Source: Rhodopseudomonas pentothenatexigens (GTDB lineage Bacteria > Pseudomonadota > Alphaproteobacteria > Rhizobiales > Xanthobacteraceae). From it: a stretch of 64,000 bases of DNA. The stretch is taken from NCBI RefSeq assembly GCF_900218015.1, contig NZ_UFQQ01000004.1:1-64000 (forward strand), read 5' to 3'. Under the pieces are notes generated by a model. The model saw only the letters and a list, made by a program, of their open reading frames with translations. It did no database searches and was not told the DNA's origin. This document shows, piece after piece, positions 27,409 through 59,578 of this stretch; position 1 is the first letter of the stretch, and each line of letters opens with the position of its first letter. A program made the translations under genes and the position numbers.

Positions 27409-27633
27409 CGGGTCTGTTCCGCGCCAGTGCCGTCGTGACCAGCACACCGCCGCGCCACCGCTCGATCGTCGGACTTGTGCTCATGGTTTTGTCGCGATTG
27501 TCAAATCGACCTTCGTCGCTGCGCCGCTCCAGGCGCTCGCATTGTTCCCAATCATGGATTTTCCGTCCGCCATCGACGATGCTGAGGGCGGCTCAGTGCC
27601 TTGCTGCAACACCGGCCGGAAAGGACGATTGCC

Positions 27634-27942
27634 ATGGTCCGCAACAGAGTCCGCAATAGAATTCCGACGCATCTGATCAATCTGTCGATCGGCGCGAGTC
27701 TGATCGCGCTGTCCGGCATCGCGAGCGTGCCTGCAAGCGCTCAGAGCTGTCATGAGCTGTGGGTCGAGCGCAACGGCTACTACAAAGATGCCGGCCACTG
27801 CTTCAAGACGTCGCGTGCGATCTCCTATTTCGGCAATCGCGGCTGCGTCTACGAATTCGAGGGCGAGGTTCCGTTGCCGCGCGGCATCCGCGCCCGCATC
27901 AACCAGATCCGTGCGCTGGAGCGACGGTTCGGCTGCGATTGA
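27634..27942 (+). CDS. Small secreted YARHG-domain protein
   Basis: A 102-residue exported protein. Signal peptide residues 1-36 (ASAQ cleavage). The mature part starts SCHELWVERNGYYKDAGHCFKTSRAISYFGNRGC, the short Trp/Tyr/Gly pattern of the YARHG domain, with four cysteines in all. Such proteins are extracellular or periplasmic and of unknown function. ATG 27634 is chosen for the AAAGGA site nine bases upstream. Confidence 0.72.
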   Translation: MVRNRVRNRIPTHLINLSIGASLIALSGIASVPASAQSCHELWVERNGYYKDAGHCFKTSRAISYFGNRGCVYEFEGEVPLPRGIRARINQIRALERRFGCD

Positions 27943-28006
27943 TGGTCCGGTCCCGGCCGGGGTGGTGAATTTCGCCGCGGTCCTGAAACTGCCTCAGGAA
28001 CATTCA

Positions 28007-28142
28007 GATACCTTTGCTGTTGGCCTGCCGACGGCAGTGGCGACGTGGTTGCGAGGTGATCGCAGGTCGCGGCGACCGTCGAGCACTCTTTCAGGTATCC
28101 TCCCAGACTATGGCCCGCAGCCTGATGCTGCGGGTCTCTTTG
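28007..28142 (+). ncRNA. Candidate structured RNA or riboswitch-like leader
   Basis: GATACCT (28007-28013) can pair with AGGTATC (28093-28099), closing a junction with three perfect hairpins: CTGCC/GGCAG (28025-28037), TGCGA/TCGCA (28050-28064) and GGTCG/CGACC (28065-28077). A terminator hairpin with U-rich tail follows (28114-28142). The layout, closed multi-helix domain then terminator then a gene 85 bases on, is that of a riboswitch or a small RNA. I cannot match it to a named family. There is no open frame with a ribosome site here. The lead-in 27943-28006 holds no feature except a short CCTGA/TCAGG hairpin at 27982-27998. Confidence 0.45.
28114..28142 (+). terminator. Rho-independent terminator
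   Basis: An eight-base-pair stem CCCGCAGC (28114-28121) with GCTGCGGG (28127-28134), loop CTGAT, followed by TCTCTTTG. One of the clearest terminators in the window. It lies 172 bases after the YARHG gene and before the esterase gene. Confidence 0.78.
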
Positions 28143-28226
28143 TCTGGCCCGGCGGTCCAGATCTACCATATTGCAACGCAGCAATTATATCCGGGGGCAG
28201 GGCAGGGGCCCAGACCAGGAGCGACC

Positions 28227-29423
28227 GTGTCACTGAAACATCACATCGACTTCCTCGGGCAGCTCCGGAAAATGCAGTCCGTCAACGGCTTCGGCAGCGG
28301 CGAAGCAGCCACGGACAGCCGCCTGACCGAGACGACGGCGTTCGGCGTCAACCCGGGCGGCTTGCGCATGTTCTCCTTTGTGCCGGACGGACCCGCGCAG
28401 AAACTTCCGCTCGTGGTGGTGCTGCACGGCTGCACCCAGAACGCCGCCGGATACGAGGTCGGAGCCGGCTGGTGTACGCTGGCGCAGCGCTATGGCTTCG
28501 CGCTGCTGCTCCCCGAGCAGACCCGCGCCAATAATCCCAACACCTGCTTCAACTGGTTCGCGCCCGACGACATCCGCCGCGACAGCGGCGAAGTCGGCTC
28601 GATCCGGCAGATGGTGGAGCACATGGCGCGAACCCACAACATCGACCGCGCCCGGATCTTCGCCACCGGGCTGTCGGCCGGCGGTGCGATGACTGCGGCG
28701 CTGCTCGCGACCTATCCGGACGTCTTCGCCGGCGGTGCCGTGATCGCCGGCCTGCCCTATGGGGTCGCGCTCAACGTGAGGCAGGCGTTGAAAGAGATGC
28801 GACAGGCGTCGGCTCGCACCAATCGCCAGCTCGGAGACCTGGTCCGCGGTGCCACTCCGCATCGAGGCCCTTGGCCGAAGCTTGCGGTGTGGCACGGTGA
28901 TGCCGATCGCACCGTCGATCCGGCCAATGCGGACGCCCTGGTTCGGCAATGGCTCGACCTGCATGGCCTGCCCGACGCGCCCACGGCCCAGAACAAGGTT
29001 GACGGCTATCCACGCAGGCTGTGGCGCAATCCAGGCGGTGAAACGGTGGTGGAATCCTACACCGTCACCGGCATGGCGCACGGCACGCCGCTCGGTGTCG
29101 GGGCCGGAGAGCAAAGCTACGGGATGGCCGGCGCGTATCTGCTCGATGTCGGTATCTCGTCGTCCTACCACATCGCTCAGTTCTTCGGCCTGACGGGGCG
29201 GATCCATCAATCGCGGCCTGCCGACAAGGCGGTTCGGCTCCGGCCCGCACCGACCGGCAGCCGCGATCCGGCAACCGAAGCTGCAGTCCGCGGCGGCGAC
29301 CGCGACCGCTCTCCGGGTGCTCAGCATGCCGAGGCGTCGTCGACGCAGTCCGAAGGCAGGCGTGGTTTCGACGTGGGTGCAGTCATCACCCGGGCGCTGA
29401 CCGCGGCGGGGCTAATGAAATAG
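28227..29423 (+). CDS. PHB-depolymerase/feruloyl-esterase family hydrolase
   Basis: A 398-residue esterase of the PHB depolymerase (LpqC-like) family. Oxyanion segment LVVVLHGCTQNAAGYEVGAGW (about 67-87); nucleophile elbow FATGLSAGGAMTAALLATYPDVF near 155 with intact GxSxG; acid WHGDADRTVDPANAD near 230; histidine VTGMAHGTPLG near 287. The C-terminal 80 residues are low-complexity. There is no obvious signal peptide, which is odd if it attacks extracellular polymer. GTG 28227 is chosen because AGGAG lies five bases before it; longer frames would cross the upstream terminator. Confidence 0.83.
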   Translation: MSLKHHIDFLGQLRKMQSVNGFGSGEAATDSRLTETTAFGVNPGGLRMFSFVPDGPAQKLPLVVVLHGCTQNAAGYEVGAGWCTLAQRYGFALLLPEQTRANNPNTCFNWFAPDDIRRDSGEVGSIRQMVEHMARTHNIDRARIFATGLSAGGAMTAALLATYPDVFAGGAVIAGLPYGVALNVRQALKEMRQASARTNRQLGDLVRGATPHRGPWPKLAVWHGDADRTVDPANADALVRQWLDLHGLPDAPTAQNKVDGYPRRLWRNPGGETVVESYTVTGMAHGTPLGVGAGEQSYGMAGAYLLDVGISSSYHIAQFFGLTGRIHQSRPADKAVRLRPAPTGSRDPATEAAVRGGDRDRSPGAQHAEASSTQSEGRRGFDVGAVITRALTAAGLMK

Positions 29424-57712: not shown

Positions 57713-59380
57713 ATGCTCAACGCCGCCACCACCGACAGCTACGGCGCCGTCACCCATGAGGTGATCAACCAGCCGGTCGAACTCGCCAACTACAATCTGT
57801 TCAGCGCCGACCGGCCATTGGTCGAAGCGGTGACCCGCGAAGGCGCCGAATGGGCCGCCAACGATATCGCCGATTTCGGCGCCCGGATCGGAGCCGCCGA
57901 CTATCTCGAACTCGGCGCGCTCGCCAACCGGCATCTGCCGGAATTCGACACCCACGACCGCTATGGCCGCCGCACCGATCTGGTGCGCTTCCACCCCGCC
58001 TATCACCGGCTGATGCAGACCTCGATCGAGCAGGGCTTGCATTCCTCGCCGTGGACCGATCCGCGCAACGGTGCGCATGTCGCCCGCGCCGCGCGGTTCT
58101 ATCTGCACAGCCAGATCGAGGCCGGCCACGGCTGCCCGATCAGCATGACGTTCGCGGCTGTGCCATGCATCAGCCTGCAACCCGACGTCGCCAAGCAGTG
58201 GCTGCCGAAGATTTTGGCGCGCAGTTACGATGCGCGCAACGTGCCGGCCGAGCAGAAGCAGGGCGTCACCATCGGCATGGCGATGACCGAGAAGCAGGGC
58301 GGCTCGGACGTCCGCGCCAACACCACCCGGGCGATCCCGGTCGGCGCCGGCGGCCCGGGCGGCGAATACGAATTGGTCGGCCACAAGTTCTTCGTCTCGG
58401 CGCCGATGTGCGATGCCTTCCTGGTGCTGGCGCAGGCGCCGGGCGGGCTGTCGTGCTTCCTGGTGCCGCGCTGGAAGCCGGACGGAGCCAAGAACCCGCT
58501 GCAGGTGCTGCGGCTGAAAAAGAAGATGGGCAACGCCTCCAACGCCTCCAGCGAAACCGAGCTGCGCGGCGCGTTCGGCTGGATGATCGGGCCGGAAGGT
58601 CGCGGCGTCGCCACTATCATCGAGATGGTGGCGATGACCAGGTTCGACTGCATGATCGGCTCGTCGGCGATCATGCGGGCGGCGCTGTCGCAGGCGATCG
58701 ATCATTGCCGGCAGCGCGCGGCGTTCGGCCGCCTGCTGATCGATCAGCCGATCATGCAAAACGTGCTGGCGGATCTCGCGATCGAAACCGAGGCCGCGCT
58801 GGCGCTGACGATGCGGATCGCCCGCGCGCTCGATCACCGCGCCGAGGAGCACGAGGCGCATCTGATCCGGATCGGGTCGGCGATCGGCAAGTACTGGATC
58901 TGCAAGCGCACGCCCGGCGTCACTGCCGAGGCGATGGAGTGCATCGGCGGCTCCGGCGTGATGGAAGACGGGCCGATGCCGCGTCACTTCCGCGAAAGTC
59001 CGGTCAATGCGATCTGGGAAGGCTCCGGCAACGTGCAGTGCCTCGACGTGCTGCGGGCGATGACCCGGACGCCGGAGACGCTCGAGGCGTATTTCGCCGA
59101 GGTCGAGCAGGCCAAGGGCGCCGACGTCGCGTTCGATCGTCACATCGCCGCGCTGAAGGACGACATGCGTGATGCGTCGGACTTCGAGGAGCGCGCCCGC
59201 GATCTGGTCGACCGGCTCGCTGTCGGGCTGCAGGCCAGCGTGCTGATCCGGCATGCCCCGGAAGAGGTCGCCGAAGCGTATTGCGCATCACGTCTGGCGC
59301 AGCGCGGCGCACATCATTACGGCGCGCTGCCCAAGGGCATCAACTTCGCCGCGATCATCGACCGCGCACGGCCGCGGTGA
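57713..59380 (+). CDS. Acyl-CoA dehydrogenase, AidB-like
   Basis: A 555-residue flavoprotein of the AidB/long ACAD type. N-terminal domain about 1-180 with YNLFSADRPLVEAV near 27; FAD-binding TIGMAMTEKQGGSDVRANTTRA (about 186-207); the medium strand domain HKFFVSAPMCDAFLVLAQAPGG; helical domain with MIGSSAIMRAALSQAIDHCRQRAAFGRLLIDQP; and the MECIGGSGVMEDGPMPRHFRESPVNAIWEGSGNVQ segment near 415 with the catalytic-type Glu. AidB is part of the alkylation response in E. coli; some homologues act in fatty acid oxidation. Its divergent TetR suggests inducible control by a small ligand. Confidence 0.9.
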   Translation: MLNAATTDSYGAVTHEVINQPVELANYNLFSADRPLVEAVTREGAEWAANDIADFGARIGAADYLELGALANRHLPEFDTHDRYGRRTDLVRFHPAYHRLMQTSIEQGLHSSPWTDPRNGAHVARAARFYLHSQIEAGHGCPISMTFAAVPCISLQPDVAKQWLPKILARSYDARNVPAEQKQGVTIGMAMTEKQGGSDVRANTTRAIPVGAGGPGGEYELVGHKFFVSAPMCDAFLVLAQAPGGLSCFLVPRWKPDGAKNPLQVLRLKKKMGNASNASSETELRGAFGWMIGPEGRGVATIIEMVAMTRFDCMIGSSAIMRAALSQAIDHCRQRAAFGRLLIDQPIMQNVLADLAIETEAALALTMRIARALDHRAEEHEAHLIRIGSAIGKYWICKRTPGVTAEAMECIGGSGVMEDGPMPRHFRESPVNAIWEGSGNVQCLDVLRAMTRTPETLEAYFAEVEQAKGADVAFDRHIAALKDDMRDASDFEERARDLVDRLAVGLQASVLIRHAPEEVAEAYCASRLAQRGAHHYGALPKGINFAAIIDRARPR

Positions 59381-59439
59381 CTGTCGGCGGAAACGAAAGC
59401 AGGGGTTGTCTGCCGCTCTCGTTCTCAACGGTACTGAGT

Positions 59440-59547
59440 CCTCATTCTCAAGAGCCCGGCGTAGCCGGGCGTCTTGAAGGATGAGAAGCCGCATCGCCTG
59501 CGGCGTATGGTTCGAGACGGCGCTCCGCGCCTCCTCACCATGAGGGT
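59440..59547. repeat. Dispersed palindromic repeat, family D
   Basis: Left arm CCTCATTCTCAAGAGCCCGGC with GCCCGGCGTAGCCGGGC as an internal stem, right arm GGTTCGAGACGGCGCTCCGCG ending CTCCTCACCATGAGGG. This 'CCTCATCCTGAGGAGC ... CTCACCATGAGGG' element is a well-known intergenic repeat class in Bradyrhizobium and Rhodopseudomonas. It fills the gap between convergent acyl-CoA dehydrogenase and ctpA genes. Confidence 0.75.
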
Positions 59548-59578
59548 GCGCGAGGTGACGTCGCGAGGGTGCCGTTCC

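Follow-up and report, generated by a model that had tools for sequence, protein, structure and literature searches.

In the 64-kb window (the whole stretch of DNA analyzed here), the region preceding a PHB-depolymerase gene is best explained as an EcfG-controlled gene for an RNA of ~115 nt, probably an Hfq-type anti-Shine-Dalgarno sRNA, that was formed by loss of an open reading frame (ORF); judging from the sequence, we lean slightly towards this reading as a whole. Its parts carry different weights. It is highly probable that the element derives from an EcfG-controlled small-protein gene by ORF loss, and fairly likely that an RNA is made from it; whether that RNA has a regulatory function is close to an even question, tilting if anything towards the negative. 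According to the model that we propose, the ancestral locus would have encoded a small protein under EcfG control, rich in Met and Lys and probably secreted, the coding sequence of which would have been lost in the window genome, with the stress promoter and the 3′ module remaining. The promoter at 27997-28021 would drive an RNA of ~115 nt consisting of a 5′ hairpin, an unpaired UCCUCCCAGACU stretch, and a terminator. General stress would induce this RNA through the PhyR-NepR-EcfG system, and its CCUCCC would pair, probably with Hfq, with the Shine-Dalgarno regions of other mRNAs, as in the alphaR8 sRNAs, presumably repressing these targets. A first-pass annotation of this DNA had proposed either a metabolite-sensing leader or an independent small RNA. 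The leader found no support, and the small RNA is the better half of that proposal because a promoter, an unpaired anti-Shine-Dalgarno stretch, and a terminator can be recognized in the sequence. If our reading is correct, an mRNA would here have become a regulatory RNA, and the intact gene that sister species still carry would allow the two states to be compared; in these bacteria, a base-pairing RNA arm would also be added to the general stress response.

The origin of the element is indicated by the orthologous loci. In three other genomes of the genus (G010, G007, and G004), the 3′ module comes after the stop codon of a gene encoding a small Met/Lys-rich protein, which is probably secreted (the secretion signal was judged by eye). 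Thus, in these relatives the module lies in the 3′ UTR of a protein gene, and in the window this ORF is missing. The small-protein ORF was absent at this place, and the rest of the window genome did not yield one in a search that recovered the gene from 4 of the 16 genus genomes (G010, G004, G005, and G001) and that could miss a strongly diverged copy; the gene in G007 was accepted by its position and composition. In G001, the gene order is YARHG gene, small-protein gene, terminator, PhaR box, and depolymerase gene. The window genome contains the gene for the small YARHG-domain protein (27634-27942, + strand; Pfam PF13308, E 5.9e-12), an upstream neighbor lying outside the element, and lacks the small-protein gene. 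In a second genus, the depolymerase gene followed a small-protein gene in all five genomes (5/5), a PhaR-like box was located ~150 nt past the small-protein stop codon, and CTCCCCGACT followed by a GC-rich stretch was found after the stop codon in four of the five. Because the ORF is present in two genera, the change was most plausibly an ORF loss. Two distant, non-syntenic small-protein matches (G169 and G174) were found at loci without a depolymerase gene, and showed neither GGAAC-N15-19-GTT within 200 nt nor such a tail. Assignment of the small protein to the MXKDX family was rejected (TIGR02953, 9.8 bits versus 41).

When the region 27943-28144 was compared by blastn with the 15 other upstream regions of the genus, the promoter and the 3′ module were recovered as two separate stretches of homology, 65 nt apart. 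With the best local alignments picked, so that the identity figures are flattering, the 3′ module (28089-28143) was identical to that of G010 at 46 of 55 positions (E 7e-12), and the promoter segment (27995-28023) aligned upstream of the small-protein ATG with G007 at 26/30 positions (E 3e-4), with G010 at 23/29 (E 0.043), and weakly with G005 at 15/17 (E 0.52). Both the promoter and the 3′ module were closer to G010 than were the fourfold sites of the neighboring coding sequence, of which 110/197 were identical. Moreover, CTCCC-N-GACT was present in the 3′ UTR of 6 of the 10 syntenic small-protein genes; CCTCCC itself was found in two of the ten, and four more contained TCTCCCC. The motif was degenerate in G004 and G143, and absent from G005 and G001.

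The putative EcfG-type (general stress sigma factor) promoter, GGAAC-N17-GTT at 27997-28021 (+ strand), is proposed on the basis of position and homology. The site matches the published EcfG binding motif GGAAC-N17-20-GTT (PMC6599016). Given that GGAACN{16,17}GTT occurs once in the 64-kb window and that 1.74 such sites would be expected by chance, the pattern match is insignificant alone, and it is the place and the homology that carry the promoter claim. In this regard, GGAAC-N17/18-GTT was found upstream of the ATG in all five small-protein genes of the genus (5/5), in addition to the window genome. In the second genus, GGAAC-N17-GTT lay 54-56 nt before the small-protein ATG in 5/5 genomes; over the syntenic small-protein genes of the two genera, the promoter was therefore present in 10/10, and AGGAAC-N-TT was invariant in 11/11 aligned rows. 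No GGAAC-N15-18-GTT was detected in the 1.5-kb upstream regions of the ten other genus genomes, which have no small-protein gene, and no sigma-70-type promoter was found in 27600-28400. The genome encodes the anti-sigma factor NepR (PF18557, E 2.2e-15), and the presence of a PhyR-NepR-EcfG system was judged from this NepR match. In EcfG promoters, the base directly before GTT is usually C; the window promoter has T at this position, which counts against the EcfG reading. The element shares the GGAAC-N17-GTT promoter with genes of the EcfG general stress regulon but, unlike them, has no remaining protein product. The EcfG target table of S. melonis does include a predicted small secreted protein (PMC6599016). 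An inverted repeat (TCCTGA/TCAGGA, 27981-27999), seen in the fold, overlaps the -35 element of the EcfG-type promoter and could be either a chance occurrence or a regulator site.

Transcription from an EcfG promoter would be expected to begin ~7 bases past GTT. The position of the promoter would thus place the start of the RNA near 28028, rather than at 28000-28007, and together with the terminator this predicts a non-coding transcript of ~115 nt (28028-28144, + strand). When this predicted RNA was folded, it formed a 5′ imperfect hairpin (28029-28081, + strand; inverted repeat I1), a largely single-stranded segment with UCCUCCCAGACU, and the terminator, with a z of -2.4 (3 of 200 shuffles did as well). 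The UCCUCCCAGACU segment (28098-28109, + strand), which comprises the putative anti-Shine-Dalgarno seed and NGACU, recurs at the corresponding position in G010 and G007, and its CCUCCC was 62-77% unpaired in the predicted RNA. In the 3′ UTR of G007, however, the motif was predicted to be mostly paired, and in that of G010 partly paired, which speaks against a uniform picture. The intrinsic terminator (28112-28144, + strand) was identified by folding and by a terminator scan. It had been described initially as strong; its 10-pair hairpin (28112-28136) is present, but the U-tract (UCUCUUUGUC) is interrupted and poor. The predicted layout corresponds to that of Hfq-type sRNAs carrying an anti-Shine-Dalgarno seed. 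The 5′ hairpin is found in this genome only: no match to 28029-28081 was detected in 60 other genomes at E 0.001, with at most 13 candidates scored per genome. This confinement of the 5′ half to a single genome weighs against the sRNA reading. Derivation of the inner part from a repeat or mobile element was rejected (it has a single match in its own genome). The small-protein gene was likewise rejected as the source of the inner ~65 nt, since local alignments did not outperform shuffled sequences (43 to 123 of 300 simple shuffles scored as well).

The first-pass annotation had emphasized a closing stem enclosing three perfect hairpins. The closing arms, GATACCT (28007-28013, + strand) and AGGTATC (28093-28099), are indeed perfect 7-nt complements. 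With a start near 28028, however, the 5′ arm falls in the spacer between the -35 and -10 elements of the promoter and is probably untranscribed. The three hairpins were not recovered: when arms of 6 nt or more were required, the closing stem contained the repeat CTGCCG/CGGCAG, whose 1-nt loop is sterically impossible, and two further arms with a complementarity of 74-80%, and the MFE fold of the stretch was a single long, imperfectly paired hairpin that includes a short regular inner stem. The closing stem is not preserved in related genomes, and no conserved aptamer with covariation was recognized; at the aligned places, pairs were retained at 3/7 positions in G010, 3/7 in G007, and 1/7 in G004. 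The 5′ arm has a near-identical counterpart in G007 (AATACCT), to which no 3′ arm corresponds there. Compared with shuffled sequences, the fold of 28003-28145 gave a z of -3.5 (0/200 shuffles as good), and that of 28004-28101, from which the terminator is excluded, a z of -2.1 (3/200 as good); this drop indicates that a good part of the signal comes from the terminator. The pairing density had also been regarded as unique in the window. When 1800 segments of the same size, covering both strands, were scanned with 20 shuffles each, 24 reached an equal or lower z, and 284 had an MFE as low as that of the stretch. In the same z scan, the most unusually structured stretch was 59364-59577 (z -7.1 on the - strand and -5.0 on the + strand). 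The stretch had further been said to contain no reading frame; ORFs of at least 80 aa do overlap it, including an upstream extension of the depolymerase frame, and what stands is that none was judged to be a gene of its own.

As first described, AGGAG (28217-28221) followed by GTG (28227) is located ~85 nt 3′ of the terminator. This GTG is the start of an Esterase_PHB/short-chain PHA depolymerase gene (28227-29423, + strand; PF10503, E 8.4e-33; NF050058, E 4e-101), an orthologue of which was found in all 16 genomes of the genus. Between the terminator of the element and the depolymerase start codon, and outside the predicted RNA, lies a separate PhaR-like box, the putative operator of the depolymerase gene (28166-28186, + strand; core TGCAACGCA at 28172-28180). 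It fits the S. meliloti PhaR consensus WNWD2NYGCRNYGCRNH2WNW (PMC12542648) except at the first base. In 16/16 genus genomes, the core YGCRNYGCR preceded the matched coding stretch by 52 to 59 nt, this stretch starting at codon 1 to 3. Within 200 nt upstream, it was present in 16/16 genus loci (1.6 in simple shuffles) and in 23/25 further family loci (2.5 in simple shuffles), in several of which the true start codon may precede the matched stretch. In S. meliloti, PhaR binds such boxes upstream of phaZ and SMa1961, both PHB depolymerase genes (PMC12542648). Given this binding and the conservation of the box, the depolymerase gene is most likely under its own PhaR-controlled promoter, which argues against its co-transcription with the element. 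By comparison, the element with CCTCCC and GACT was found in only 3 of the 16 genus genomes (G000, which is the window genome, G010, and G007), and the depolymerase genes keep the PhaR-like box in genomes that do not have the element.

The relation of the element to known RNA families was examined with Rfam. At both gathering and permissive thresholds, no riboswitch family was found in the stretch, and weak matches to mir-6096, RNaseP-T, and Six3os1_3 were far below threshold and were regarded as chance. The one family to respond plausibly, RF00519 (suhB/mmgR, alphaR8), scored 22.1 bits against a gathering threshold of 41 (E 0.022 in a 401-base scan with all Rfam families), and the score of at least 41 bits that marks membership was not reached. 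The element had been said to match no named family, which holds in that nothing exceeded an Rfam threshold, and needs amending in that it resembles RF00519 below threshold. In genome-wide searches, the element had an E of 0.071, and the G010 copy at the same place scored 30.1 bits (E 6.4e-4). Since 13 of 14 control genomes also gave RF00519 matches at E up to 1, one of them above the cut-off, the score of the element is weak evidence when taken alone. The window genome also contains two full alphaR8 members, at C37 (73.1 bits) and at C46 (52.8 bits). The alphaR8 10-nt sequence UUUCCUCCCU and its counterpart in the element, UAUCCUCCCA, agree at 8/10 positions, and a Rho-independent terminator follows the 10-mer in the element. 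The weak hairpin directly 5′ of the 10-mer is absent; the long 5′ hairpin stops at 28081, leaving ~15 nt between it and the motif. The pattern TCCTCCCN{0,2}GACT followed by CTTT had exactly three sites each in the window genome and in G010, namely the element and the two alphaR8 genes; reversed-pattern controls for this search matched in 8 of 16 genomes, G000 and G010 not being among them. With its sub-threshold score and without the 5′ hairpin of the family, the element was not filed as an RF00519 member, although on paper it would work like one. As in the alphaR8 sRNAs (mmgR/suhB, RF00519; SisA-D of Caulobacter), a CCUCCC, here predicted to be mostly unpaired, is followed by an intrinsic terminator and, as in the genome's own two members, (N)GACU lies between them. 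Unlike the alphaR8 sRNAs, the element has no compact 5′ hairpin, has an EcfG-type promoter, and originates from an mRNA 3′ UTR. In S. meliloti, the alphaR8 family has been connected with carbon storage (PMC12559287 and PMC7143759). Just before the alphaR8 gene at C37 of the window genome, a PhaR-like box was observed at 1472-1492 of L013 (core TGCGGTGCG at 1478), with a second PhaR-like core match at 1457. A PhaR-like box reportedly precedes mmgR of S. meliloti as well, and PhaR control of alphaR8 sRNA may be old.

A further likeness is offered by CcsR1-4 of Rhodobacter sphaeroides, the motif of which has anti-Shine-Dalgarno content. Like CcsR1-4, which come from the 3′ UTR of the stress-induced small-protein mRNA ccaF1 (PMC8625941), the module belongs in relatives to the 3′ UTR of a small-protein mRNA that would be induced by stress. 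The element differs in having a single CCUCCC beside the terminator instead of a series of repeated RNAs and, with the ORF gone, no processing from an mRNA would be needed.

Several other explanations were weighed against an EcfG-controlled sRNA formed by ORF loss. It is possible, although we rather doubt it, that the element is a non-functional relic, in which a promoter and a terminator were left behind by a deletion, any RNA is idle, and the element is decaying. Sister genomes do contain decayed or missing forms; by eye, G004 (CGTCCACGATG) and G015 (CCTCTCAGCCTATGG) carry degenerate versions, and little or nothing is left in G006 and G003 or in the remaining genomes. The promoter has also been lost from the ten other genus genomes without the small-protein gene, which fits decay, and after a recent deletion both ends would still be intact even in the absence of selection. 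The greater similarity of promoter and module to G010, relative to fourfold sites, argues against a relic, but could be explained by selection before the deletion; moreover, the ~65 nt between promoter and module match nothing found, so that the deletion was perhaps not very recent. That the element is instead a true third alphaR8/mmgR member, a divergent duplicate of the two genome copies, appears improbable. UxUCCUCCC-(U)AGACU and a terminator are common to the element and the alphaR8 genes at C37 and C46, but the score falls far short of 41 bits, the compact 5′ hairpin of the family is absent, and the syntenic relatives are 3′ UTRs of protein genes and not sRNA genes.

The two remaining alternatives concern the flanking genes. 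The element might be the plain 3′ UTR and terminator of the upstream YARHG gene, with no RNA of its own, given that 54 nt separate the end of this gene from the promoter-like site and that the terminator scan found no terminator between them. In the relatives, however, the corresponding terminator serves a different gene with its own promoter, which is retained here, and we consider a YARHG 3′ UTR very unlikely. Least credible of all is control of the PHB-depolymerase gene by a metabolite-sensing riboswitch or an attenuator, which is what a structured stretch and a terminator 5′ of that gene would at first suggest. An element that is missing from most orthologous loci and lies 5′ of a conserved operator does not behave as a riboswitch for the depolymerase gene; in addition to the lack of an Rfam riboswitch and the conserved PhaR-like box 3′ of the terminator, the closing stem is unconserved, its 5′ arm lies inside a conserved promoter, and no homologue of the inner part was found in the 60 other genomes. 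A tempting but wrong annotation is thereby corrected, in that the depolymerase gene is more likely to be controlled by PhaR than by a riboswitch.

Tails resembling the 3′ module were also found beyond this locus. TCCTCCCNGACT followed by TTTTT within 12-42 nt occurred in 25 of 149 family genomes, compared with 1 of 149 for the reversed pattern. Class-wide, the same type of tail was found in 12 of 289 genomes, as was the reversed control (12 genomes), in a sample whose sole member of the family is the window genome. Among the 30 family tail sites, 27 with a locus were examined. Ten of these 27 were located 14-83 nt past the stop codon of a gene with CtrA ends (L076, L077, L079-L082, L090-L092, and L095, each with TCCTCCCNGACT and a terminator at about position 1500); one of the ten ctrA-like proteins was tested and proved to be CtrA (NF045991, E 3.2e-127). 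Another site followed a phasin gene (TIGR01985), and at two of the 27 the gene ends resemble those of what we take to be alanine dehydrogenase. The remaining sites followed further genes or were free-standing, and a site in G025 had the full alphaR8 layout. From their sequence, the ctrA tails could possibly give rise to a 3′ UTR-derived anti-Shine-Dalgarno sRNA from the mRNA of a cell-cycle regulator. Among the titles and abstract starts of the literature matches listed, there was no description of the element or of a similar ctrA 3′ UTR sRNA. A scan of the whole collection for CCTCCCNGACTATGGSCCGC gave two matches only (Prevotellaceae and Cypionkella), in a collection from which near relatives of the window were possibly left out.

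Taken together, the comparisons place the window tail within a class of mRNA 3′ ends that recurs in the family. A broader proposal, which we put forward as speculative and on the whole unlikely, is that a stress gene became a pure sRNA gene when loss of its ORF brought the EcfG promoter next to the 3′ UTR, which would imply that the CUCCC-N-GACU/terminator tail, and not the protein, was the product worth keeping, and that this tail is a plug-in anti-Shine-Dalgarno module shared within this bacterial family by sRNA genes (alphaR8) and the 3′ ends of unrelated mRNAs (ctrA, phasin, and others). As a separate observation, phasin genes, which encode PHB granule proteins, carried a CCTCCC and terminator tail at L078 and L115, in a family genome and in G010; these tails provide another link between CCTCCC-terminator tails and PHB metabolism.
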